Below are positions 3,855 through 64,000 of a stretch of DNA of 64,000 nucleotides, piece after piece. Position 1 is the stretch's first letter; each line of letters opens with the position of its first letter. A program made the translations under genes and the position numbers. Where the stretch lies: NCBI GenBank assembly GCA_006384855.1, contig VCJN01003190.1, positions 124,001 through 188,000 on the forward strand, written 5' to 3'. The notes beneath the pieces were generated by a model. That model saw only the letters and a program-made list of their open reading frames with translations. It ran no database searches and had not been told where the DNA came from. Source of the DNA: Tetraselmis striata. Its lineage: Eukaryota > Chlorophyta > Chlorodendrophyceae > Chlorodendrales > Chlorodendraceae.

Positions 3855-5030
3855 ATGTACGCCTACCTCCCTCTACATGCGACACCGCGTGCGGTGAAGA
3901 TGGCGCGATTGGGAGAGCATCGGCGCGAGCGGACAAGTCTTGAGTTGGATCCGCCAAGGGGTCCGGATACGCTTCAAGAACGGGCAACGCCCTCGCTCCT
4001 ACAACCACGACGTCTCTATGCGCGACGCCACTCAAGCACAACTGGACTTCATGGCGCTACAGAACTGCCCCGCTTCGAGGCGATTGGCGCGTGGGAGCGA
4101 GGACACTGCAACAAGTGGGTATCCAGAATGTTTTTAGTCCCCAAGCCCGGCACCAACAAGTGGCGCCTCATCATCGACCTACGGGAGCTCAACAAGTGGT
4201 GCAAGACTTTCACGATGTCCTACGAAACGCTCAATCACCTGCGGCACCTGGCGCGCGCGGGAGACTAGTTCGTTTCGATGGACCTGGCCGATGGCTACTA
4301 CGCCCTTGGGATTCGGAAGGAGGACCGCGACTTCTTTACCGTGAACTACCGAGGGGAGCTATGGCGACTGGCGCGCCTACCGATGGGTTGGACATGCTCG
4401 TCGTACTACTTTTGCAAGTTGACGGTGGCCTCTACGGACTACATGCGGACGCCCATGAAGCGGCGCGACCAAGCGTTACCTCCCACGGCCCCGTCCAAGC
4501 CTACTCGCCGTTTCCTGCGCAACACTCGCTGGCGGGGCGAGCGGCTCCTACCCTATATGGACGACTTTCTTTTCCTCGCGGACTCCCGCGAGGCAGCCCT
4601 GGAGCTACGCGTCCGGTTAAACACCTCGCTGGACCGCCTGGGCCTGCTGCGCAACCCCAACAAGGGAGTCTGGGAGCCCACCCAAGTCGGCCCTCACCTG
4701 GGGCTGATCGTCGACCTACAGCGCGGCGAGTTCCGCGCCCCCGAGGAGAAGCTCATCGCGCTAGCCAAGGTCGCCCGTTCTCTCCTTGGCCGCGCAGCAT
4801 CGAACAGGCGCTGGCTCCCAGCTCGGCTGGCGTCCTTTGTGGGCAAGGCGAAGTTCCTGTACATGGCAATTACGCCGGCCCGTTTCTTTTTGCGAGAGCT
4901 GCACTGCGTCCTCGCAACCCGGCAGGGCTGGGGCGGGCGCGTCAAGATGACAAACCAGCTGCGCCGCGATCTGGAGTGGTGGACCCAGGTACCTGCGCAG
5001 CACAACGGTTGCTCTATGTACAAGCCTGGG
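3855..5030 (+). pseudogene. Reverse transcriptase of PAT-type element (one stop, then frameshift)
   Basis: One frame carries the RT domain: SRMFLVPKPGTNKWRLIIDL (fingers), then MDLADGYYALGI (motif A), RLPMGWTCSS (motif B), LLPYMDDFLFLA (motif C, the Y-x-D-D catalytic box) and HLGLIVDLQRGEF downstream. The RT would copy element RNA into DNA. A TAG at 4266-4268 sits between GD and FVSMDLADG, where relatives often have Trp, consistent with a TGG to TAG change. The frame is lost near 5010-5030, before RNase H. Relatedness to DIRS/PAT RT is clear from the motifs and from the neighbouring recombinase. Confidence 0.85.
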
Positions 5031-5870
5031 AAACCGCGTATCTGCACGCGGACTCCAGCTCGCATGGATGGGGGGCTGTGCTGAACAACAACAGCGCTTA
5101 CAAGGCGCGCAGCTTCTGGTACGAGGACGATCGCGCGCATCACATCATGTGGAAGAAGCTTCGCGCGGTACGTCACGCGGTCGAATCGTTCCTGCCGCAG
5201 CTCCGAGGACGGCGCGTCTTGAAGCACGAGGACAACACGGCCGTGGTGGCAGCGCTGGCCAACCATACTTCTCGGCCGCCCGTCATGATGGAGGAGCTCC
5301 GCAAGCTATGGCACCTCATGGATATCCACGACATCTCCATCAGGCCCCGGTACATTCAGTTTTGCCAACGTTTGGGCGGACCGACTCAGCAGGGAGCTGG
5401 ACGACTCCGACTGGCAGCTCAATCCGCGGATATTCGCGTACCTGCAGCGCTTGTGGGGTCCGCACACCGTCAATAGATTTGCGTCGATGGAGAACACGCA
5501 ACTTCCACGGTACAATTCCCGCTGGCGCGACCCACGTTGCGAAGCGGTGGATTCTCTCCATGTGCCGGACGAGTTTTGGCGCAGAGAACGCAATTATTGC
5601 AATCCCCCGTGGGTTTGTTGGACGATTTGGCGGACAAACTGCGACAGTCGGGCGCGGCCGCCACGGTCATCGCGCCGCACTGGCCAGGACGGCGTTGGTA
5701 CCAGCTGCTGCAAGATCTCGCCACCGAGACGATCGTCTACCCGCCTACCCGCGACCTCTTCTTTCCTGGGCGGCGGGGAACGCGCGCGGGGGTCGGACGG
5801 CCCGGCTGGAGCGTCGTGGCCTTTCGGCTGCCACGCCGGCATGGCTGCACCTCCGCCGTGGGTCGCTAGG
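5010..5870 (+). pseudogene. RNase H and post-RNase-H region of PAT-type element (frameshifted)
   Basis: After a frameshift from RT, the frame codes AYLHADSSSHGWGAVL (first catalytic Asp), MWKKLRAVRHAVESF (Glu) and VLKHEDNTAVVAAL (Asp), a retroelement RNase H. A second frameshift near 5360 moves the rest (FANVWADRLSRELD, then DRFASMENTQLP-like text and a Pro-Trp segment) into another frame. A third, near 5600, leads to TVIAPHWPGRRWYQLL. This last part is the conserved stretch that sits between RNase H and recombinase in DIRS-like elements. RNase H removes the RNA template strand. The pieces are recognisable, but the gene is broken at least three times. Confidence 0.8.
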
Positions 5871-22074: not shown

Positions 22075-25000
22075 TCACTTGGGCCCTGCTCGCAGCGGGT
22101 TGTACTTGGGACGAGCAGCAGCTGCACTGCCAAACGGCTTGCCAGTTGTAGCTCTACCGGCGGGATTGGGTGCAGCGTTGTCTTCTGTCAATGCCACAGC
22201 AGCTGACGTCTGCAGCTGCGAATCCCCGGATGAGGTGTCCTGGATGCTGTTCAGGAACGCCTCGGCGTTCAGAGCTGCACTGTGCTCTTCTTGCTGCATG
22301 TCGGAAGCATCGCCAGCTAATCCATTGGACGTCCCCATTCCGCCCATGCTGTGAACGCCAAAGTCCATCCCAGGAAAGGATGCAGCCGACGACACCGGAG
22401 CAAACACTGAGTGTGTTGACGGGAACGACTGCGGGAACTGGGGTGACACGGACATGAAGGAGCCTGAAGTTGGCGGCGGCGCTGCTGGAGCGGAGTTTGT
22501 AGAACCACCGCCGCCAGGCGCAGGAAACAGCATGGAGAGAGGTGCGGACGAGGGCACAGGAGGCTGCGAAGCCGGGGATTCTCCCTGGGGTAGCATGGAG
22601 AAGCCCGGACCTTGACCGTACATATATGGCGGAAGCACGGCGGTCTGTATTCGTGCCTGCATGTTGAGCGCCGCAGGCGAAACGCTGCCAGGTGCCATCT
22701 GTGTAGACGTCAGCTCCTGTCCCTGCCCGGGCAACGGCTTCCCTGCAGCAGGGCCTCCAATGGTGTCTGGCGGAGCTGGGATCTGCTGGAAATTGACCAC
22801 CGGCGGCTGGTGCCCTGGCTGGAACTTTGAGGAATGTACCATATCCTGCTGGCCCAGTTCATGCATCATTACCGACTGAGCTGTTTGTTGAGACATCCCA
22901 GCGATATGCGGAGGATTGCCGAGAGCTCCTGTGCTCTGAGACGGCACTGCATGCGCTCCGTTTGGCATTGGCCGGCTGTCGCATCTCATGTTGGCTGGCT
23001 TGTCATGCGAAAATTTGCACTGGTTCCCAAATCGGCATCCCTGTTAACACAACAGTGCATGTTTTGTCATGTCAAGCACCTCACTATATGGAGGGCCAGC
23101 GAGCGCTAATGGCCAAAGGGTGCAGCGATCTCCCCGCCGCTGTGCCCTCTGCAGAATTCAATCAATGCGCATGCCGCAGTCGGTATAAGCACTACCCATA
23201 TGCCTGTAGTCCTGCCTGCCCACATGCACACTGCTGTTCCCTATGCAAACACACTTGCATAAACTATGAGAGCGCATATCCCAGGGAGGGGGGGGGGGGG
23301 AGCAGTATACCTGTTGGGATATGAAATGCGTGCACGTACTGTTTGGGCTTGCCAGAGGCAAATTGCCGTCGCCTGCACGGGTGTCCGCAGTACGTGGGGG
23401 CGGAGGCGCTGGTGGCGCTCCCTTGTTATACCTGCTGTTGAGCGCAATGGTTGTGCACCCAAGCAGAGTGTGAACAGTGTGTTTCGTGGCCGAGGGGAGC
23501 ACAGCCACCCCCAGTAGCCAAAAATCAGGTCGGAATGCATTGCATGCACTTGACCGCCCGCTCCTCACCTGTTGCTGCTGCGATCGAGATGCTGAAACTT
23601 GCAGTTGAGACCCCATTTACAACCCTGCAAAAACCTTTCCATCAGACAACGCCGTGCATCTGCATAAAGACAAGGGGACATACTCGGTGGAGGGTGCTGC
23701 ACCTGGTCAGTGTTGAAGAACTTGCATATGGTTGATACTTTTGGTTGGTGGATTCTGGCCATGGTACGTGGGGACATTTTCTCTTGCTTGGCATGAGCAG
23801 CCTCCGGCGTCACCCAAGAGGTGTCAACCTGTTGCAATGCTTGCTAAAATAGACAATAACGCATACAGCATTCAACACGAAATTCAATGGATGACCTCAC
23901 CCATGAAGAATGCCGCAGGGGAGATGTGCGCACCGGCAAGCTTGCCTTTCGGTTGTGCTCTCCTTGATGAGTATGTGTGACGCTGTCCGCAGCCTTTGCT
24001 GACGTTCTGCAAGAAAACATTGCAAAGACTGGATAATTTAGAAGCTACCCCAGAAGAGATCCAAAAAGTGCATGCCGGTCGGGTATGCATGAAGCGGGGG
24101 GGGGGGAGGAGGGAGAGAGAGAGAGAGAGGGGGGGGGGGGGGGGGGGGGGATGAGGACCTGATTTTTGTGCCGGGGGTTTCCGGCGCATCAGCCCTATCC
24201 CATGTATGCTGGGGTCCCAACGCTGCCTCCACAGCCTGCAGAACACATACTGCTCGGCCGGAAGCAGGACGTTGGCAGCTGGGAGGGCGGTTCGAATAAC
24301 GGGCCACCCACCTTTTTGGCTGTCATGGTATCATTATAGATGGCCAGACTCTCTTCAATAGCCCTTGCAAGCGCTTCGCTCTCAGATAAGCCCTCCTGGA
24401 ACGGCTCTGGACTTGGCTGTGTAGTCGAGTTGCTCTTGACAGGCTTGGAAGTGGGAGCAGAAGCGTGTTGGGGGGCTTTCGGTGGTGGCGGTGCTGGTAG
24501 CGGCGGCATTTCAGGTTCCGTTGTATGCTCATGCACCTTGGTCTCAGCCTGCGGCTGGTTCACAGACACGCACAGCATCACGGTCTGCGGCTCAACCGGC
24601 AGAGGATAGGCCTAAGCAAAACGACACTGCATCACCATCAGCGGCCCTGCCCCCACCAGGGATCCAACCACCTCGCACACCTTTACTTTCTTCTTTTTCT
24701 TCTTCTTCTTGCTCGACTCCTCCGGGGTCTTGAAGCTCATTTCGCTGAATTCATAGTCGGCAGCAGCCTCGGCAAGGGCCTGCAGGGCGGCAAACAGCAG
24801 TCAGGGTGTGATTGCAAGCAGCGTATCGAGTGCATGGCGTACGGGAGGCCGCAGAGGGTTGCACGTGACAGCAGCACAACACAAGCCAGGCCGGCAAGTA
24901 TTATCACTTTCTGTATCGCCCGCTCCTTCTCCTCCTGCCGAGCCTTTTCCTCCTCAGCAGCCTTGTCATGGGTCTCCTGGGCTGCATCTCCCGCCGCGTG

Positions 25001-26664
25001 ATGGCTCGCTGTGGAGTGGGTGGCGCGAATCGGTTTCCCCCCTATTGAGTTCCGGCCCTTGCGATGACGGTCGCCGCCTGACGGGTCGCTGTGAGCCGAG
25101 GCAGTCGTCTTGCCCGTCGTGGCGTATCTAGACTCCACAGACCAATCGCCCCACTCTTCATTACCACCGTTCCCCCGTTGACCTGTTCAGCAGCACGTCC
25201 CTCAGGCAACGCTCGTTATTAAAGCAGGTGATGCTCACGCTGCAAAGTGGGTGGTAGGTTGCCTGCTCACCGCCACAGACACGGAAGAAGTAGTTGGTTC
25301 CTGGCTCGAGAGGCTGGAACGTGTACTTGCTGGTGTCCTGCACATAGTCAAAAACGAGCAGTGATTAGCCCCCCCCCCCCCCCCCCCCCTCCTTCCTTCT
25401 GCTTCCCACCCCCAAACAGACAGTGCTACAATATGGAGTGTATGGCCCCTGGTCATCCCGGAGCCCGGCCCATACCTTGTCCACCTCCATGGCCATCCAG
25501 TTTGGCTCCCCATTTTTGCGCATCTCCAGCTTTGTTATGCAGGTCGATGGCAACTACAGCATGGTGTATGTGTAATGTCAGCTTTCATGCTTGATTGAAA
25601 TGTCAGGGGGGCGCCCTGGGTGGGAATTTGCGGAGGTCGAAAGCTGGGCAGTACCTCAGAGGTATTTACTCCCCTCCGTACAAGCACGAGCTCAATGCTA
25701 CTGTCTGTCCGCGACGCCATTGTCGGACGCGGCATCTGGCGCATCCAAGCACGGATATTGCGCTCCTGAGCCACGGACCGTGCAGCCTTTGCTGCGTTGG
25801 CTGCCCTTATATTCTCACGCTGCAGACCAGCAGAGACATGGGTGTGTGAGCACACCAGCTCACGCAGATGCCGCGCCCAAAATCTCTCACAGTAGCACAT
25901 ATAATCGCCATATGCCACAGCCAGCGATGCCCACCTCTGCCATCTCCATCTCCTTGCGCCACATCTTTTCCAATTTCTGCTCTTCACGCTCACGGTGGCG
26001 CCGCTCCTCCCTGCTTTCATATGCGTACGAGCGATCATAGTATGGATCTGCCTCTTGCTCCCTATACTGGGAGGAGTGGCCATGACTGTGCCCATGGGGG
26101 TGACTGTGCCCGCCAAACATGCCACCGGGTTGAAATGGGAACGGCGGAAATCCCTTTCCATTGCACTGCCCTGACTCCATAGCAGCAAACCTGTAAGCGG
26201 GATACACAATACACCAAGCACTCAGGTTGCAGCAACGGCACAGGTGGAAGTATCATCAAGCGTGAGCCTGCAGAACACAGTCATGGCATTGCGTACAGCT
26301 GCTCAAAGAATTCCCACGGAGGTATCCCGCCATGGAAGAAACAGTCACAATCGTAGTCATCCTCATCGTCCTCGTCGTCATAGTAGTCATCATAGTAATC
26401 ATCTTCACTCTCATCCGAGTACTCCCCGCAGAACTCACGCGTCAGCTTCGCGTATGCTGCCTGGATCCGCTGAAACTGCTCCGTGCATTCCGGGCTGTTT
26501 GAATTCTTGTCCGGATGCCTGGAATGTCAAGCCGAAATGCAGGTCAGGTAAGATCACACAGCTGCATGCATCACGGTCCAATGAGCAGCCCCTCGCATGT
26601 TGTGGATATCCCCAGCGATGTGCTTATAAAAAGTGCATACATGCAACCCCCCCCCCCCCCCCCC

Positions 26665-26709
<45 letters not shown>

Positions 26710-26978
26710 GCGCATACTGCCCAGAAAGACGCACCACTTCAACGCCTGCTGCCGGAAGGCTTTTCGCATGTCATCACTGTCGCAGCCGGGCTGCAGAACG
26801 CACACAGGGAGGAAGGGCTTGGCGCTCAACCGACAGACATCTCAGATTGTTAGTCAGAGTTTAGTTCAATGCACCCAACATCCAGTCCGCTGTTGTCGGT
26901 GTCAGCGAACATCAATGCCGGGCATGGGCTGCTGGGTACCTGGAGCCCGAGTATTGTATATGCTTCATCTAGCTTCAT
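22075..26978 (-). CDS. J-domain / FN3 / UIM / double CCCH zinc-finger protein, 14 exons
   Basis: Spliced model; every intron is GT-AG and phases agree: 26978-26940, 26790-26735, 26518-26297, 26190-25935, 25819-25655, 25553-25476, 25337-25271, 25182-24908, 24779-24681, 24611-24312, 23843-23703, 23624-23569, 23431-23311, 23040-22075. Total 2841 nt, 946 residues. Residues 1-65 are a J domain with the HPD tripeptide at 33-35, which would stimulate an Hsp70. Then come an acidic Asp/Tyr run, a His-rich stretch and a charged coiled coil; FN3 near 205-295 (LEPGTNYFFRVCG); a Lys-rich run; a ubiquitin-interacting motif (SESEALARAIEESLAIY, ~495-511); two C-x8-C-x5-C-x3-H zinc fingers (559-578, 618-637), each split by an intron between its first and second Cys; and a Gln/Pro/Ser-rich tail. 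CCCH fingers usually bind RNA. An RNA- and ubiquitin-linked co-chaperone is inference. A small exon could be missing in the 468-bp intron 10. Confidence 0.82.
24096..24150. repeat. G11, (GA)n, G22 low-complexity block inside intron 10
   Basis: G11 at 24096-24106, a GA-rich stretch, then G22 at 24129-24150. It lies wholly within intron 10 of the J-domain gene. Comparable runs sit in introns 2 (C19, 26647-26665, followed by (CA)n to 26708), 6 (C21, 25369-25389) and 13 (G13, 23288-23300). Confidence 0.9.
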
Positions 26979-30537: not shown

Positions 30538-31149
30538 TTAATTTGCAGTTGGAATTCTAGCCGGATATTTAGCCGCATGCTGCAGAAACAGATCTGACTC
30601 AGCAAATTGCAGCCACATTGGCGTATCCATAAAATTCTGCAAAGCGACAGTCCGTTTTACATCAAACAGACGATGCCACACAGGTGCGATCGCATGATCT
30701 GCGAAATGCACCAAAAATTGCAATTGTGATCCTTTGCGGCCAGGCATCAAGCCAATCTTGACTGCGGATATCTTTTCAATTTCAAACTCTTGGCTTTCAG
30801 GATCTTCCTCAGAACCCGTGACCAATGGCACAACCGGTCGAATAGGTGCAGTCGGACATGGCCGCAAACTATTCACATGAAAAACCGGATGCAACTTCAT
30901 CCCCGGAGGCAACTGCAACCGGAAACTATAATTGCCAATCTTCTCAATTATCGGAAAAGGACCCAACTGCCTATCCATTAACTTCTGGTTAGGTTGGCCT
31001 TTGATTTTCAGAAAGCGAGTTACAATACTCATTTTATCTCCAACATTGAAAACGGGAACATCCCTCTGTTGCCTTTCCGTAGGACGAACAGTCAACTCAT
31101 CCTTATGAATTGCCAAAATCGATTTGACTAAGTCATGGATGTCTTTCAT
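30538..31149 (-). pseudogene. Integrase C-terminus and chromodomain-like tail of the Ty3-type element
   Basis: 203-residue open frame. FNVGDKMSIVTRFLKIKGQP and LGPFPIIEKIGNYSFRLQLP form the GPF/Y module, and HPVFHVNSLRPC is the usual end of it. Further on, FEIEKISAVKIG and LQFLVHFADHAIAPVWHRL resemble a chromodomain (E-K-I start, L-V-x-F/W, and W where TWEP is usual), which in chromoviruses directs insertion to marked chromatin. The chromodomain assignment is by pattern. Confidence 0.68.
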
Positions 31150-31152
31150 ATT

Positions 31153-31997
31153 CTAGATTATCTGTTGAGCACTGACTGACACAGGTATTGTGGGCCTCAT
31201 GGCAAACAATAAGTCAGGAGGTGTTTCAGGATTAAATCCGTAATTAACCTCAAACGGTGTATGCTCAATACCAAGTGCACGATTAGAATTATACGAAAAT
31301 TCCATCAACGGCAATTGATCAACCCAATTGGTGCCATCAAAGCAACAAAACGCTCGAGCCAGTTCACAGACAATGGCATTGATCCTTTCAGTCAGACCAT
31401 CCGTTTCAGGATGTTGGCCACTAGACATGTTTAACTTAGTGCCTAGGCGACGCCACAAAGTCTGCCAAAAAGACGACATAAATCTCGGATCACGGTCCGA
31501 AATTATAGCCCTTGGTAAACCATGCAGCCTGTATACTTCCCTCAGAAATAACTCAGCTGAATATTCACCAGTCACAGTTTTAATCGTAGGAATAAAATGT
31601 GCTTGACGGGTTAGATGGCATACAACAACCAACATTGCATCAAAACCATTACTCACAGGTAAATCGGTAATGGAATCCAAACCAACCGAGTGCCATGGAC
31701 GTGGCGGCACTGGAAGCGGCTGCGTCGGTGCTGCCGGCTGCGGACGAGAACGTACCCGCCTACAGGTTGGACAATTATCACAATAGGCTTTCACGTCATG
31801 ACGTATACGTGTCCACCGAAACGATCCAAGGCACGTGCCAAGGTACTCTGAACAGCCCGGTGCCCAGTAGTATCATGTAACTCACACAATATTTTGTTAA
31901 TGAGCTGACGGTTATTAGGGATGCATAGGCATTTATGTCTCCAAAACAATCCGTCGCGTTTGGACACATGTCCCGACTTCATCCACCCCCCCCCCAT
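31153..31997 (-). pseudogene. Integrase of the Ty3-type element
   Basis: The zinc-binding domain is split between two frames (ELHDTTGHRAVQSTLARALD for the H-x3-H part, AYCDNCPTCRRVRS for C-x2-C). The catalytic core is open from 31794: VGLDSITDLP (first Asp), AIISDRDPRFMSSFW (second Asp) and GQHPETDGLTERINAI (Glu), the D,D-35-E triad. It would join element cDNA to the target. Confidence 0.88.
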
Positions 31998-32570
31998 TCG
32001 GAATAGAAGTCGTCTGCCACATACCCCGTTTTTGTCATGTCGAGTATGTCATCACTAAGCTTTAGAGCACTCACACTCATAGAAGCTATGGCAGAAAACA
32101 GTGGGGTGTGTACACCTTCAAGTGTCTCAACCGCGTCCGGCACATCCCCGGTCCAATAAAGGCCACCGAAACTTAACGGTTTCAAATCCGGTCTACGAGA
32201 CAACGGATCTGCCTTATTCCACTTGCCTTTTCTGTACGCAAGGGACATCGAACCAACATAAGGCTTAAGTCGCGAACATAGCGAGCTTAGCGCTTATTCA
32301 TCCGTTCTGTAGGTTGCCTGAGCAAATGCCGTAGGGTGTCATTGTCTGAAACAAAGGAATCGACGGCAACCTTCAAGGTAACACATCCAATGCTTAATAG
32401 ACCCACAGATGGCTAATGCCTCTAGGTCATAAGCAGAGTAAGTATTCCCACGCTCAGCTGTATTCAGCTTCCGCGCCCAGAATGCCACTGGTTGAGAGCC
32501 TCCTCCCTAGTCCTGCAATACTACTGCAGCTAGCCCTACGTTGGACGCATCTGTCGCTGCGGTAGAACGT
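31979..32570 (-). pseudogene. RNase H region of the Ty3-type element (decayed)
   Basis: Fragments on the minus strand read ASNVGLAAVVLQD, PVAFWARKLNTAERG, AYDLEALAICGSIKHW and GKWNKADPLSRRPD, the expected Ty3 RNase H strands and the conserved A-D-x-L-S-R-R end. Several stops interrupt it. Annotated mainly by position between RT and integrase. Confidence 0.7.
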
Positions 32571-33590
32571 CACATCAATGCCCACTTCCACAGTATGGTC
32601 AGACAAGGTGCCGAAATCAACGGCAGACGAAGAGTCTCAAAAGCTTCCTCACAGTCAGGACTCCAGTCTACAACGGCTGGTTTTGTTTTACGTAACAAAT
32701 CTGTCAAAGGAGTGGTTAGATCACTGAAAAGGTGAATAAACCCTAGAGTAAAATTTGCAAAATTGTACAAAACTTCGCACTTCGCTCTGAGTTTTTGGCA
32801 CATGCCAACTTTTACCACCGATACAATACATCCCCATAGTTAATACTCCATAGATGTCATACCAAAGAAACATTTCTTTAGTTGCAAACATAGGTTATGT
32901 TCAGATAATTTCGCCACTACCATACGAATATATGTTCAAAGTGGTCAACATAATTTTCTGAATATATATACAAATATCATCAAGATATACCACAACAAAT
33001 TTACGCAAAAAGGGACATAAGATAGCATTCATCATACGTTAGAAAATTGCAGGGGCATTGCATAACCCAAATGGCATAACAGTCCATTTTAATAATCCAT
33101 CAGATGTTTGAAATGCAGTTTTATGTATATCCTCCTCAGCTATAGCTACTTGCCAATAACCAGAGGCTAAATCTAAATGGGTATAGCATCGAGCTTTCCT
33201 CAACTCATCAAGAGTTTCATCAATACGCGGTAAGGGATACGCATCCTTCCGGGTAACATCATTGAGACCACGAAAGTCTACACATAACCGGAGAGATCCA
33301 TCCGCCTTCCTAACAAAAAGAATAGGCGAGCCAAACTCAGATTGACTAGGACGTACAAGCCCGGCTTCAATAGCTGATTTTAATTGGCGATCTAACTCGG
33401 CACGCTCAGCCGGGGACAACCGATTGAGACGTTTCTTCATAGTACCAGTAAGATCAATCTTATGGTCCCATGGTCGATGCTGCGGAGCACTATCAACCGG
33501 TCGTAACACATCCGGAAATTCATCACAAAGAATTTTACGAACAGCCTCCTTATGCTCAGGTAGCATTGCATCATCCAAATGCGACTAGGG
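32570..33590 (-). pseudogene. Reverse transcriptase of the Ty3-type element
   Basis: The frame 33578-33039 contains SEFGSPILFVRKADGSLRLC, VDFRGLNDVTRKDAYPLPRI, YTHLDLASGYWQVAI (motif A) and VMPFGLCNAPAIF (motif B). It stops at TAA right after AIF, where Ty3 elements usually have Gln (CAA to TAA fits). Motif C (VVVYLDDI) follows beyond the stop near 33000. The connection (FADLTTPLTDLLRK-like text) lies near 32730. Confidence 0.85.
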
Positions 33591-34321
33591 TCATCCTTAA
33601 TCACACTTATTTGGACAGAATAGAACTCAGCCACACGGGGCTTTGCTTTCCCTCCCCTCGCCGTTTTCCACATTAATTTCATCACTTTAATTGCAGAAAC
33701 CGAACTACATGCGGGTCGGCGTTCTATTGTTTCAAACTGGATTTCTGTACCATCAATTAGGGTTAAGATACGATTCTCCCCATATTGTACAGATACTTGC
33801 GCTTCATCAAGCCAAGTTAATCCTAATATAACATCAGCCATATTGAGTTCTCGAAGAACATAAAATACTCGGTTCTCAAAACAATGTCCTGCTATATCAA
33901 ATGTAATGGTAACGATCTGTGTACAACTCACACGTTGACCATTAGCAAGACGAACCGGAATTTTCTTCTGTAGTTTCTCAATCTGAATATTATTTTTACG
34001 GACAAAGTCCTCAGAAATAAAATTCAGCGATGCTGCATTATCTACTAATGCATCTACATGAGCACCAGTACTTAAGCTGATTTCAACCTTTAATAGTGGC
34101 CTGGGATCATCCCATTTACTTAATGAAGCCCCAGTAGCTGGTTGTGATACATTATCAACATTATCAGCCGACACATTAACGATTTCAGAGTTAAAAATAT
34201 TTTGGTTAACATTTTCTGACTCTACGTTAAAATCCTGAGTGTCCGCAGACACCTCCCCACCAACATTAGGTGAGCAGGATTCATCCATAATATCATCAGG
34301 TATACTACATTCATTGTCCAC
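33437..34321 (-). pseudogene. Aspartic protease region of the Ty3-type element
   Basis: The frame codes GAHVDALVDNAASLNFISED, the retropepsin active-site strand with D-N-A where D-S/T-G is usual, followed by the flap-side segment FYVLRELNMADVILGLTWLD (I-L-G-x-x-W-L). The protease would cut the gag-pol precursor. The altered active-site triad suggests reduced or lost function unless DNA is tolerated in this family. A frameshift near 33590 separates it from RT. Confidence 0.75.
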
Positions 34322-34720
34322 CAGCCATATACGAATGGGCCACGGCGCAGGGCGGACATCATATGGACAGTAGCATTATCTGGTGATAAACGGGTAAACA
34401 TAGGCGTTCTAGCCGGGAACTCTTGGATTAGTTTCCAATGCTTTGTAATAGCATCAAACCTATCCCAAGCCGGTAGTATAAAAACACCCAGAGTATCATT
34501 ACGATTAGCTTTACGACACTGTTCAAAGTGTGCAGCAATTTGTTCTACTCTGTTCCATGGTGGATGTATATATACTCGTTCACCAGCTAAAACTGGTTCA
34601 TTGACAGAACAGAAGGGCAGATCCTCATGGGTATTCAATCCCTCATAATCTGCACATCCCTCTAAAGTAAACTTGTACTTATCATAGAGGGGGTCAAAGA
34701 TACGATCCACCAGTCTCCAG
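34310..34720 (-). pseudogene. DNA N6-adenine methyltransferase-like domain in the Ty3-type element
   Basis: The minus-strand frame from 34720 codes a segment with RIFDPLYDKYKFTLEGCADY, GERVYIHPPWNRVEQIAAHF, DTLGVFILPAWDRF and TPMFTRLSPDN. This order (a D-F/L-x start, an acidic strand, a [DN]-P-P-[WY]-like box here HPPW, a hydrophobic L-P-x-W strand, and a [FM]-T-R strand) resembles the Dam-like N6-adenine methyltransferase folds carried by several eukaryotic retroelements. The usual Asp/Asn before PPW is His, so catalysis may be lost. A frameshift near 34360 moves the end into the protease frame. Function is inference. Confidence 0.5.
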
Positions 34721-45735: not shown

Positions 45736-46881
45736 CTAGCTAACAGCGCCGTGATCACCTAGAAAGAAGAGGTAGCCACACCGGGAGCGGCGAGATTCCA
45801 AATCCCCAGCATGGTCAGCATCTGCATAGCATGTGAGCTGCAGACTGGCCGGTGACCCCCCCAAGGCGAGGCCCTGTGAATGCGTGCCTTTGAGATAACG
45901 GAGGACCTTTTTCAGAGCAGTCATGTGCATCTGACATGGTGCTTTCTGCACCTGGCCCAGAATGCTGAGAGCAGCATTGATGTCAGGTCTGGTGCTGCAA
46001 CCGACATACAAGAGGCTGCCCATCAAGGACCGGTAAGTTTCACGACCCTCCACTCCAAGTGCAGGTGACGGCGGCGCTAAATCAGGAAGGTGATTCTTGT
46101 AGTCAGTGTCCATGGGGAGTGCAGAGGGGTAGCAGTCCTCCATTCCAAACTGACGAAGAATGTCGCCAATGTATTTCGACTGATCCATGGTGATAGTCCG
46201 GTTGGCTCTGTCCCTAGCAGTGTGCATGCCCAGAAGCCACTGCAAATTCGTGACGGTAATCTGGAAGCGCTGACTGATCTGCTGCTTGAAGTGGGTAGCC
46301 CACTCCACAGAGGTCGACGCAAAGGGCATATCATCCACGTACAACCCCAACATAGAAAATACCCCATCTTGATAGCAGTAGTACATGCATGGATCTTTAC
46401 TGCACTGCTTCCACCCGGCCTGTAGCAGCCACCCACTGATCAGTTTGTTCCAATTCCGAGGGGATTGCTTGAGGCCATACAGCGACTTTCTCAGTCTGAG
46501 TACCCGCTTTGTGCCATCATGAAATCCCTCAGGTTGGCGCATGTATACCTCTTCATCCAAATCGGAATGGAGGAACGCCGTGTCCACATCTAGTTGGTAT
46601 AGTTCCATGTCTAGGGCTGCAGCGATGGTGAGCATAACCCGGAGACTGGCCTGTCGAATCACAGGTGAGAATGTCTCTGTGAAGTCAATACCGGCCTTCT
46701 GACTGCAACCCTTAGCCACAAGTCTGACTTTGAATTTTGCAACCTCGCCATTAGAGTCAGGTTTGACTTTAAACACCCACTTGCAGTTGACCGCTTTTCT
46801 GTCTGGTGGAAGTGCCACCATATCTACGTCCCATGTGCCATTAGCCACTTGAGCACTGTACTCTTTGGCTATGCTTTGCAT
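45736..46881 (-). pseudogene. Reverse transcriptase of the copia element
   Basis: 381-residue open frame. CKWVFKVKPDSNGEVAKFKV, FTETFSPVIRQASLRVML, YQLDVDTAFLHSDLDEEVYM (motif A), SLYGLKQSPRNWNKLI (motif B) and MLGLYVDDMPFAS (motif C). It is in frame with integrase upstream (separated by TGA at AKE-stop-MQS, where relatives have Trp) and with RNase H downstream (TAG at GAVS-stop-KSR, again a Trp position). Confidence 0.92.
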
Positions 46882-48732
46882 TCACTCCTTGGCGTTGGGA
46901 CCACTGACTGCCTCTTTGTAGGTGGCTGGTTCAGGGACGTCACTGGCGGCCAAGAGTGCAACCACATTGCCATTTGACATGTGTGCCTCAGCAATCACTG
47001 CTCCGTCGTCCCCAGCATCAGATAGCATAGCTTGAAACTGATCGCAGAATCGCGTAGGCGGGCGTCGATCTCGCACCGGTCTGTCAGGTGCAGCATCTCC
47101 AGATGCCCTCCGAAGTGTTGGCTCCGTATCCCCCACTGAATCGAACTCATCTAGGGATGCATCCGAGCGCACTGGCACATCGGATCCCCCATCGGAGTCC
47201 TCTTCAGATTCCAGACGCACCGCCGCAAATGGTACGGACCCCCCAAATCCAGGTGTGTGCTCGTCAAAACGCACATGTACCGTGTTGATGATGCTGCCAG
47301 TGGTGGGATTGTACACCTTGTACCCAATTGAGTCCTCAGCATAGCCGACTATGACCCCCGTGAATGCCTTAACATCCATTTTGCTGCGCTGATCATCCGG
47401 AATTTTCACAAATGCCGCGCATCCAAATACTCTGGCAGCACTAGAATCGGCTGCCTGTCCCGCCTGTAGTTGACATGGGATGCCGCCTCCAGGTCCAGCC
47501 CCTCGGGAGTAGGTGCGCTCATGCACCCAGTTGGCGGCGGAGAATGCCAAAGTCCACATCCAAGTGGGCACATTCATTGCATGCATCATGGTACATGCTG
47601 CCTCTCTGAGAGTCTTGAAAGGCCGCTCCGCCTTTCCCAACATGTTATGTTGATGCGGTGCTGTCCATTGTACCCCAAACCCCATGGCGGTGACCATGTT
47701 CTGCAGGCTTTCAGCGCAGAAAGTGGGATCTTGATCAAATTTCATCATCGGGGCAAACGGTAAGTGCCCATGATGGCGCTGATGAGTGAACTTAATTTTG
47801 CGTGAGGTCACTGCCAGCTGCTTGCCCACCTCCTATGCATTCTTGTTTTTCATGTATCTGAGCCACCGTTTGTTGGTGTAGTGGTCAGTGACAAGAAGAG
47901 CGTACTGCAGGCCATGAGGTGAAGCCACTCGCATTGGACCCCAAAGATCGACTGAAAAATTCTGGAGTGGGCCATCATGTGGTTTAGCTGGTAGTCTGTT
48001 CTGAGGTGCCGCACATGCCTTATTGAGTAGGCAGTCATGACAGAGTTGAATGCGGATGCGAGACGGAAAATTAGGCACGCCAGCGACCCCGTGGCCATGT
48101 TGCATCTGAACACCGCCCATATGTAAGTGACCGAGTCTCTTGTGCCACAGTGCCGCCTCTGCATTGGCTTCGGACAGCATCGTCACAGGGTCAACATTAC
48201 TTACATTGCTACCAATATCAGGTGCATTGGCATCACTAGCATCAGCACTAGTGCCGGAATTGGCAGCTGTTGTCACGGCTGTAGCAGCAGCTGCTGCCCC
48301 ACTCACTGCCTCTTCATGGTCGAGAAAGCGGTCCTCTGTGCCAGGTAGGATGTAGAGGCCATTGTCCACTTTCAGACCTACCATTCCTGCATCCATAACC
48401 ACCATACCATAATCCTTAGATCCAGGGTATATGAAGTCACAGCCACGGTGGCGTTGCATCCATGACTGGCTGAGTAATCTGTCACAGCCACTCTTGGACA
48501 ACAGAGCAGGAGTGTAGAGTGTGGTGATATCCAAAAATGCATATATAAGCTCATGTGGTAAGGGGGAATGCCACTTCAACAACACCAATGCCATGGATAG
48601 GCACATCAACCCCTCCAACAGTGCCGGAACGGTTGAGCTTCCGTAGGGATTTGAACTCAGATCGGTATGCATTGCAACTGATATTGCAACCCCCATCCAC
48701 AATGCCCCAACGACCATGTCGTGGTGACGCAA
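46882..48732 (-). pseudogene. Integrase of the copia element (one internal stop)
   Basis: ALWHKRLGHLHMGG and IQLCHDCLLNKAC are the H-x4-H and C-x2-C zinc-binding halves. FSVDLWGPMRVASPHG carries the first catalytic Asp, MKFDQDPTFCAESLQ the second, and NMLGKAERPFKTLREA the Glu. YSRGAGPGGGIP, VFGCAAFVKIP and FTGVIVGYAEDSIGYKVYNP are conserved copia segments. A TAG separates 47833 from 47829, in the same frame on both sides. Confidence 0.88.
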
Positions 48733-50279
48733 AACAAACCGATGCCATTAGAGCGGTCGGTCCAGATGCCACAGATTTAGTACTAGCGGTGGAAGGCTGA
48801 TCGTTGCCCCCCACTAGATTGCTGCCGACAGTAGGGGTAGATGCGCTAGAGGTTCGTACCTCGTCGAGGTCTGATCCCTCAATCGGATCGTCCTCCTCGT
48901 CAGTTGTAGGCTCGGTGGAACCCTCGGCCAGAGCGGTGAGATGAGCCGTTGCGCCACCGGTGGGAAGCTTCGACTTGATGTTAAGGATACTCTTCCTCTC
49001 CTTGTTCCATGCCAACTGTTCTCCATCTGACGCCTTGCAGTCGGGACCTCGGTGGTTCTTAGAACCACACCAGGAACATCTACCGGCGAAGGGGCTAACA
49101 CGCCTCCGAAACTTGTTAGCCAAAAATGCTTTTGGTTGGGCTGGCTCCATGGTCGGACGCGAGCCCGATCGCTGATGTCGACCCGTATGATCAAAGCCGG
49201 AATTGTCTATCTGAACCAACAGTTGCTCTTCGACTACGCGAGACTCGAGTAGTAGTGTCCGAACGCCATCAGCCCCGGTGAGCACTGCGCGTTTGCACAT
49301 GCCTAGCTAATACTGGGTGGTCACTCGGTAGGCACCCAAGCAATATAATCCCGAGAAAATGATCGGAAATACAGTGTTGGCCGGGTGGCATCAGACCGGC
49401 AACTGACTCGTTGAGCTTGTGCCACAGTTGGCGTTTGCCTTGGATGAAGTCCCCGACGCTTTGACCTGCGGTCGGATCATACTTGTCGGTAAGTCGACTG
49501 CCAATGTCAATGCTGCGAGCCACCGAGTATCTGTCCAGCTTTTCGTGCAGTGCTTGCCATGCCAGCGCTCCTCGGTTAGGCGCATTCACATCGACTAGTG
49601 CAAGTGCATCCATGCCCTGCGTAGACGAGCTCATGCTCAACATGAGTAGGTTAAAGAGCTCATCCTGCAGTAAACCATCGACTTCATGATGTCCGGACGA
49701 GAGAGTAGCCTGGTAAAGCAACTCTGGTGCTTTGATACCGAACCACGAGATAGCGAGGGATGTCCAAGACGACATCGGCAGGGCCTTAGTCAGTTTGGGA
49801 AACTCCAGTTTCTCGCGAGAGAGGGCTGAAGTGTCACCTCGGGCTCGCCGCACTGAAGCCCGGCGCGCCGACTCCACCTGAGCGGGTGTTAAAAGTCTGA
49901 CGCCCGCTACCGCCAGTGGTCGCTCGGAGCAACTCGGTGAGTTGCTGCAGGTGACTCGAGCTGACCGCACTTGTCGTCGACACAGGTGCGATGCCATTGG
50001 ACCTCTTCCCTAAGTCGTGACTTATCCTCGCCAATGCTTGCCATTCCGACTTGGAGTTCCTTTATCGCTGTCAAGATTCTATCCACCCCCCCCCCCCCTC
50101 CCCGGCTCGTCGCCGGTGTTATCGGCACTACTACGGCTACCACGTCTTCCGCTGCGTCCACTGCTCCTCACACCAAGCCCTCCTCCTTTGGTAGTCCGCA
50201 GGAGGGGAGTACCGCCAGGTGAGTGCATACCAGGAGGTAAGGGCGACACCGCCCTCGATTCACTGTCGGACATGTTGGC
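48551..50279 (-). pseudogene. Gag and protease of the copia element
   Basis: The N-terminus reads MSDSESRAVSPLPPGMHSPG in one frame, is broken at a C run (50087-50099), continues DRILTAIKELQVGMASIGED, then after another shift a capsid-like region (YDPTAGQSVGDFIQGKRQLW). The zinc knuckle is CSWCGSKNHRGPDC near 49080. The protease active site reads GRWGIVDGGCNISC, with D-G-G in place of D-S/T-G. At least three frameshifts. Confidence 0.75.
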
Positions 50280-63549: not shown

Positions 63550-64000
63550 AGGGGATTTAATCGCCCATATGCTTTACCATACTATACATATATTGCAAGG
63601 CAATACCACTAATGCCTGATATTTGCTCGCGGCACACCGCAGATTGCTGCAGCGCTGCACCGCACATGCTGCCTTAAGGCATGCTTTAATTGCCTAGATG
63701 GCTGCAAACCATTTATTAGTATGCGGGGCTGCATGGCATAGAAGGGATATGAACACGCACCGGCTTGACGATACTATACGGACTGCAAGGCAGTAGGGCT
63801 AATACTTGATATTTGCTGGCGGCACGCCGCAGATTGCTGCAGCGCTGCACCGCAGATGCTGCCTTAAGGCATGCTTTAATTGCCTAGATGGCTGCAAACC
63901 ATTTATTAGTATGCGGGGCTGCATGGCATAGAAGGGATATGAACACGCACCGGCTTGACGATACTATACGGACTGCAAGGCAGTAGGGCTAATACTTGAT
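63550..64000. repeat. 190-bp satellite array, open at the window edge
   Basis: Units start with GCAAGGC at 63595, 63785 and 63975, spacing exactly 190 bp. Each holds CGGCACRCCGCAGATTGCTG and TAATTGCCTAGATGGCTGC. The visible part of the third unit (63975-64000) is identical to the second. Confidence 0.9.

Follow-up and report, generated by a model that had tools for sequence, protein, structure and literature searches.

A Tetraselmis striata gene predicted to join a J domain, an FN3-like domain, a UIM-like helix and two split CCCH zinc fingers

Results

The window analysed here comprises 64,000 nucleotides of the Tetraselmis striata genome (contig VCJN01003190.1, positions 124,001 to 188,000). 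On its minus strand, at 22075-26978, lies a gene whose single transcribed open reading frame (ORF) unites an HPD-bearing J domain, a fibronectin type III (FN3)-like sandwich, a ubiquitin-interacting motif (UIM)-like helix and two CCCH zinc fingers. An earlier note on this DNA had described the gene as 14 exons with GT-AG introns and 946 codons. This model was rebuilt exactly, with GT-AG at all introns and one open frame of 946 codons and a stop. The ORF P0001 (978 aa; sources 'jgi' and 'mmetsp'; named complete by MMETSP), however, uses 16 exons, and the corresponding splice of the window DNA, read from 26978 to 22075 as 978 codons and a stop, is identical to it at 978/978 residues. The source contigs of P0001 are at most 3368 bases long, compared with a genomic span of 4904 bases, and P0001 therefore derives from spliced RNA. 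Relative to the 14-exon model, P0001 has the acceptor of exon 10 placed 57 nt downstream (24554 instead of 24611), two additional exons between the UIM-like and CCCH parts (exon 11, 24235-24159, and exon 12, 24006-23934; 150 nt summed) and the acceptor of the penultimate exon (15) at 23434 instead of 23431, a 3-nt NAGNAG shift. All of these differences (plus 150, minus 57 and plus 3 bases) are in frame; therefore, the 946-codon form, itself absent from the evidence seen, could be a splice variant of the P0001 gene.

The 14-exon model left 468 bases (24311-23844) without a predicted exon between the UIM-like and CCCH parts, as might be expected if two adjoining genes, with transcripts ending between 24312 and 23843, had been wrongly fused. 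P0001 spans this junction, its two additional exons being joined at exact GT-AG borders, and the same domain order was found again at a second locus of the genome, C508. A fusion of two genes is thus extremely improbable and, short of a chimeric P0001 contig, ruled out, so that the earlier view of a single gene whose one protein product contains J, FN3 and CCCH parts stands. In a DNA search of the whole assembly (224.1 Mb, 2903 contigs), the gene gave one full match, the other 21 matches being short pieces of 33-61 bases, and a second copy or allele was accordingly rejected. On several contig pairs of this genome, J-domain matches recur with the same score on either contig, a pattern that would fit an assembly retaining two haplotypes, or duplicates, in some regions. 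The window gene occurs once.

The J domain starts in exon 1 (26940-26978, MKLDEAYTILGLQ), which is common to the 14-exon model and the P0001 splice; the latter is followed for all exons given below. Exon 2 (26735-26790) carries helix II, and exon 3 (26297-26518) the HPD (26517-26509), the remaining J domain, an acidic stretch and the PPWEFFEQL segment. The Pfam DnaJ profile scored 60.9 bits against a cut-off of 27.8, and the HPD is intact, which confirms the HPD-type J domain proposed previously; in the predicted structure, the J-domain helices span residues 3-10, 18-32 (helix II) and 43-64. J domains recruit Hsp70, as is established for the family, and J-proteins determine where Hsp70 acts. 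Among the ten Pfam matches of P0001 at E up to 1, there was no class A Cys-rich family, no class A/B C-terminal substrate family and no C2H2 family. A Gly/Phe-rich stretch is present, and class B-like features are thus not wholly absent. Having a J domain and no class A/B substrate domains found, the window protein is, judged by its sequence, a predicted class C Hsp70 co-chaperone. NCBIfam gave J-domain matches and, over the region that these cover, a weak one to adenylosuccinate lyase; Rfam gave nothing in the window at the gathering score.

Exon 4 (25935-26190) encodes a His/Gly/Phe-rich stretch and the start of a charged helix (modelled at residues 166-219) that continues into exon 5 (25655-25819). 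A segment 3' of the acidic stretch, DCDCFFHGGIPPWEFFEQLFAAMESG (26352-26297 and 26190-26169, exons 3 and 4), is identical in Tetraselmis sp. GSL018 and is a possible conserved motif. The full-length structure was built with 3 sequences, reached a mean predicted local distance difference test (pLDDT) score of 44.7 and was not used for the fingers; its Foldseek matches were mostly J domains and some FN3 domains, and the Pro/Gln/Ser-rich tail was without confident structure.

The FN3 domain, introns included, spans 25112-25732. Its first strand (PRPTMASRTDSSIELVL) lies in exon 5, which is conserved in two algal relatives, P0012 and P0002; the domain continues through exons 6 (25476-25553) and 7 (25271-25337) and ends (WGDWSVES) in exon 8 (24908-25182), which also encodes a linker. 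The assignment as a seven-stranded FN3 sandwich agrees with a profile search against solved structures and with the fold predicted for P0012, for which FN3 was the only domain among the matches listed (best 50). Exon 9 (24681-24779) ends in a Lys-rich stretch. The UIM-like helix (ESEALARAIEESLAIYN, 24333-24383) is encoded by exon 10 (24312-24554); it holds the one UIM-like core motif of P0001 and falls within a modelled helix at residues 478-505.

The two fingers both have the C-x8-C-x5-C-x3-H spacing. The first half of finger 1 is at the end of exon 13 (23703-23843; half at 23726-23703) and the second in exon 14 (23569-23624), while finger 2 is divided between the end of exon 15 (23311-23434) and exon 16 (22075-23040), which also contains the Pro/Gln/Ser-rich tail and the stop. 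Both profiles passed, zf-CCCH_4 with 43.3 bits (cut-off 24.6; matched in two stretches, at exons 14 and 16) and zf-CCCH with 22.7 (cut-off 20.5), so the two CCCH fingers are upheld by profile as well as by spacing. The phase-0 intron reported just before Gly-Cys in each of them was likewise confirmed in the splice.

C508 (L021 3235-9501, L022 900-1220) was found through a weak protein-level match (E 3.8e-4), and its stretch has one full DNA match in the genome. It resembles the window gene in the order of its parts, namely a J domain with HPD, an FN3 domain with WMRQMPRPTM and WGEWSVESRYMTTG, a UIM-like segment (GLSESAALRKAIEHSLA) and CCCH fingers, as well as in the finger split sites, but it has four fingers instead of two. 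On visual comparison, exons 1, 2, 3 and 5 end at the window-gene positions, and the counterpart of exon 5 appears to start at a different place. Between the two loci, dN was 0.20 and dS 1.20 over six hand-chosen conserved blocks (112 codons), a choice that lowers dN. Long C or G runs and a GT repeat occur within the introns of the window gene, e.g. near 26650, 25380 and 24150, and C508 introns are alike in this. The four second-half finger exons of C508 lie at 46637, 47237, 48077 and 48626. First halves with a GT donor were found by script for three of these fingers; that of the first finger was read by eye as CNYFNMKK, and the dinucleotide after it is GC instead of the GT of the other three. 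The finger units are linked by 69-87% DNA matches, one 167-base copy pair being 89% alike, and the 3' ends of the in-finger introns are nearly the same. Because the units share DNA and intron 3' ends, the C508 array is a product of exon-intron duplication.

In each of the six fingers at the two loci, the split falls directly before Gly-Cys, as read from the P0001 splice for two, by script for three and visually for one. The exon duplication that the earlier note had suggested for the split fingers is clear among those of C508 but is not visible between the two of the window. The introns inside the two window fingers are no more alike than expected by chance (363/1000 shuffles as good), and comparison of the finger 1 and finger 2 exons gave no sequence support for duplication (102/1000 shuffles as good). 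Finger 1 aligned with finger 2 at a score of 42 and with the four C508 fingers at 81-99, and finger 2 scored 38-45 with all five other fingers. An exon duplication linking the two window fingers was therefore rejected, having no intron, exon or finger-score support. By these scores, finger 1 appears to belong to the same lineage as the C508 fingers, which multiplied at that locus, and finger 2 to an old or separate one. The intron of finger 2 could stem from an old duplication, or introns may have been inserted twice at one presumed CAG|GG site; a shared proto-splice site of this kind remains an alternative account of the common intron position. A PF00642 profile search of the genome gave 32 matches, 29 of them whole within an exon (start <=5, end >=25 in the profile); split fingers, including the window's two, fall below its threshold, and the search therefore says nothing on how rare such fingers are.

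At least three proteins of the family were found, P0001, P0002 and P0012. This number is a lower bound, as the searches miss known relatives, and for the same reason they do not bear on the absence of CCCH fingers elsewhere. The P0001 search scored only the 7991 candidates with most shared words; residues 225-365 of P0002 (7998 candidates scored) returned P0002 alone, not even P0001, and residues 205-318 of P0001 (26 candidates) returned P0001 and P0012 but not P0002. The other nine matches of P0001 were non-algal, covered 6-8% of the query and were similar in the J domain only. P0012 (Tetraselmis sp. GSL018, A0A061QQV6, 448 aa) is 54% identical overall and shares the J domain, the PPWEFFEQLFAAMESG segment, the charged helix and FN3. 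P0002 (Trebouxia sp. C0005, WJX79_003871, 974 aa) is collinear with P0001 in the MAFFT alignment through the J domain, the charged helix, the PRPTMASRTD-FN3-WGDYSVES block, the Lys-rich stretch and the UIM-like motif, and its C-terminal half has no clear similarity to P0001. The FN3 blocks of P0001 and P0002 aligned with a score of 169, and none of 1000 shuffles exceeded 46; the J-FN3 linker scored 83 (reached in 1/500 shuffles) and the part after FN3 122 (reached in 0/500, maximum 118).

The gene is an island amid mobile elements. Retrotransposon pieces flank it on both sides, at 30541-34375 and 45739-48747 on the minus strand and 4269-5081 on the plus strand. Their matches include an RVT_2 reverse transcriptase together with gag-pre-integrase, portions of an aspartyl protease and of an integrase, and RVT_1, which fell slightly short of its cut-off. 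A tandem repeat with a period of 190 (2.1 copies, 95% matches) occupies 63594-64000 and runs to the window end.

Discussion

The presence of these four parts in one transcribed ORF, in an order common to C508 and, for J-FN3-UIM, also to Trebouxia, suggests with about even chances a class C Hsp70 co-chaperone with an RNA-directed aiming part, acting via UIM-bound ubiquitylated clients. The CCCH fingers would attach to RNA or to RNA-protein complexes and the UIM to ubiquitin on proteins within the latter, and the FN3 domain may bind a partner or client. The J domain would then load and activate Hsp70, which may result in the ubiquitylated protein being extracted, refolded or sent to degradation. 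The J domain would be kept at a distance from the aiming parts by the long charged helix, and the tail of low complexity may promote condensate formation. Overall, the protein would be an adaptor bringing Hsp70 to ubiquitylated proteins in RNA-protein complexes.

Several observations weigh against such a role. For the fibronectin-III assignment, which the structure-profile search and the P0012 fold favour, Pfam fn3 reached 19.4 bits with the whole protein and 23.4 with the isolated block, missing its cut-off of 25, and in the P0012 and P0002 blocks Pur_ac_phosph_N, itself sub-threshold, scored above fn3. The UIM pattern consists of an acidic patch followed by a helix of the form hydrophobic-x-x-Ala-hydrophobic-x-x-Ser. 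UIM_2 scored 13.4 bits against a cut-off of 21, and only with the isolated piece; the Trebouxia segment is without a Pfam match; the core Ser has no acidic residue three positions on; the relaxed core pattern arises in 14% of P0001 shuffles (13-14% of shuffled proteins), and a stricter pattern also matches an unrelated P0001 site (EQLFAAMES). The helix may accordingly be an ordinary one, and the protein a J-FN3 co-chaperone with RNA-binding fingers and no ubiquitin link. We consider this unlikely on the whole, since P0001, P0002 and C508 all have a like motif after the Lys-rich stretch, in surroundings that are poorly conserved; thus, the position of the proposed ubiquitin-interacting motif is conserved, although its profile score is under the Pfam cut-off.

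The fingers are also open to another interpretation. The CCCH part was poorly modelled (pLDDT about 30). No CCCH motif was found in the 448-aa P0012, which diverges just past the exon 8/9 boundary without a UIM or CCCH part seen, an isoform, a frameshift and a fragment being indistinguishable here. P0002, unlike P0001, lacks a CCCH motif and contains 3 Cys among its 974 residues. BLASTP of P0001 against P0002 detected the J domain only (E 1e-14; next best E 0.80), and the FN3 and UIM links to P0002 therefore rest on shuffle tests of hand-cut pieces. The fingers look like either a gain by, or a loss from, a J-FN3-UIM core. The core role could then be protein quality control as in Trebouxia, the CCCH fingers being a lineage-specific extra, perhaps protein-binding or structural. 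The finger-free Trebouxia protein and the varying finger number, two in the window gene and four at C508, agree with this, but both loci of the genome retain C-x8-C-x5-C-x3-H fingers, and we judge it rather unlikely. C508 itself differs from the window gene in an in-frame TAG in its J exon and may therefore be a pseudogene; its exons were read piecewise.

Parts of the proposed architecture have precedents among known J-proteins. DNAJB2/HSJ1 is reported to have an N-terminal J domain with a G/F region beside it and two UIMs downstream, and to bind polyubiquitylated proteins (PMC7073051). It is thus a precedent for J plus UIM, differing in its two UIMs from the one UIM-like core motif of P0001. 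DNAJB2/HSJ1 is not known to have an FN3 domain or CCCH fingers. DNAJC21/Jjj1 shares a J domain and zinc fingers with P0001, and Jjj1 is reported to recruit Hsp70 at pre-60S particles (PMC5425277), which makes it a precedent for a J-protein on an RNA-protein particle. Among the nine non-algal matches of P0001, the DNAJC21-type Pfam set occurs in eight and the DNAJC21 name in six; FN3, UIM and CCCH are not among their listed Pfam families. The Pfam accessions of these matches include fingers of the C2H2 type. In full-text literature judged on titles and abstract openings, with most subscription papers outside it, no published description of the J-FN3-UIM-CCCH set was found, in line with the earlier claim. 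Pairings of a J domain with a UIM or with zinc fingers are already known, and the J-FN3-UIM-CCCH set appears to be a new combination.

Summarizing, it is possible, with the chances somewhat against it, that the window gene belongs to a chlorophyte family of ubiquitin-reading, RNA-directed J-proteins. Such a family would have an ancient J-FN3-UIM core and, in Tetraselmis, a split-CCCH array varying by exon-intron duplication (two fingers here, four at C508), so that one polypeptide would aim Hsp70 at ubiquitylated RNA-protein complexes. If this is true, a single protein with J, ubiquitin-binding and RNA-binding parts would provide, in algae, a testable connection of the chaperone and ubiquitin systems with either RNA granules or stalled ribosomes, and the arrays of split fingers would be a clean example of domain growth through exon duplication.
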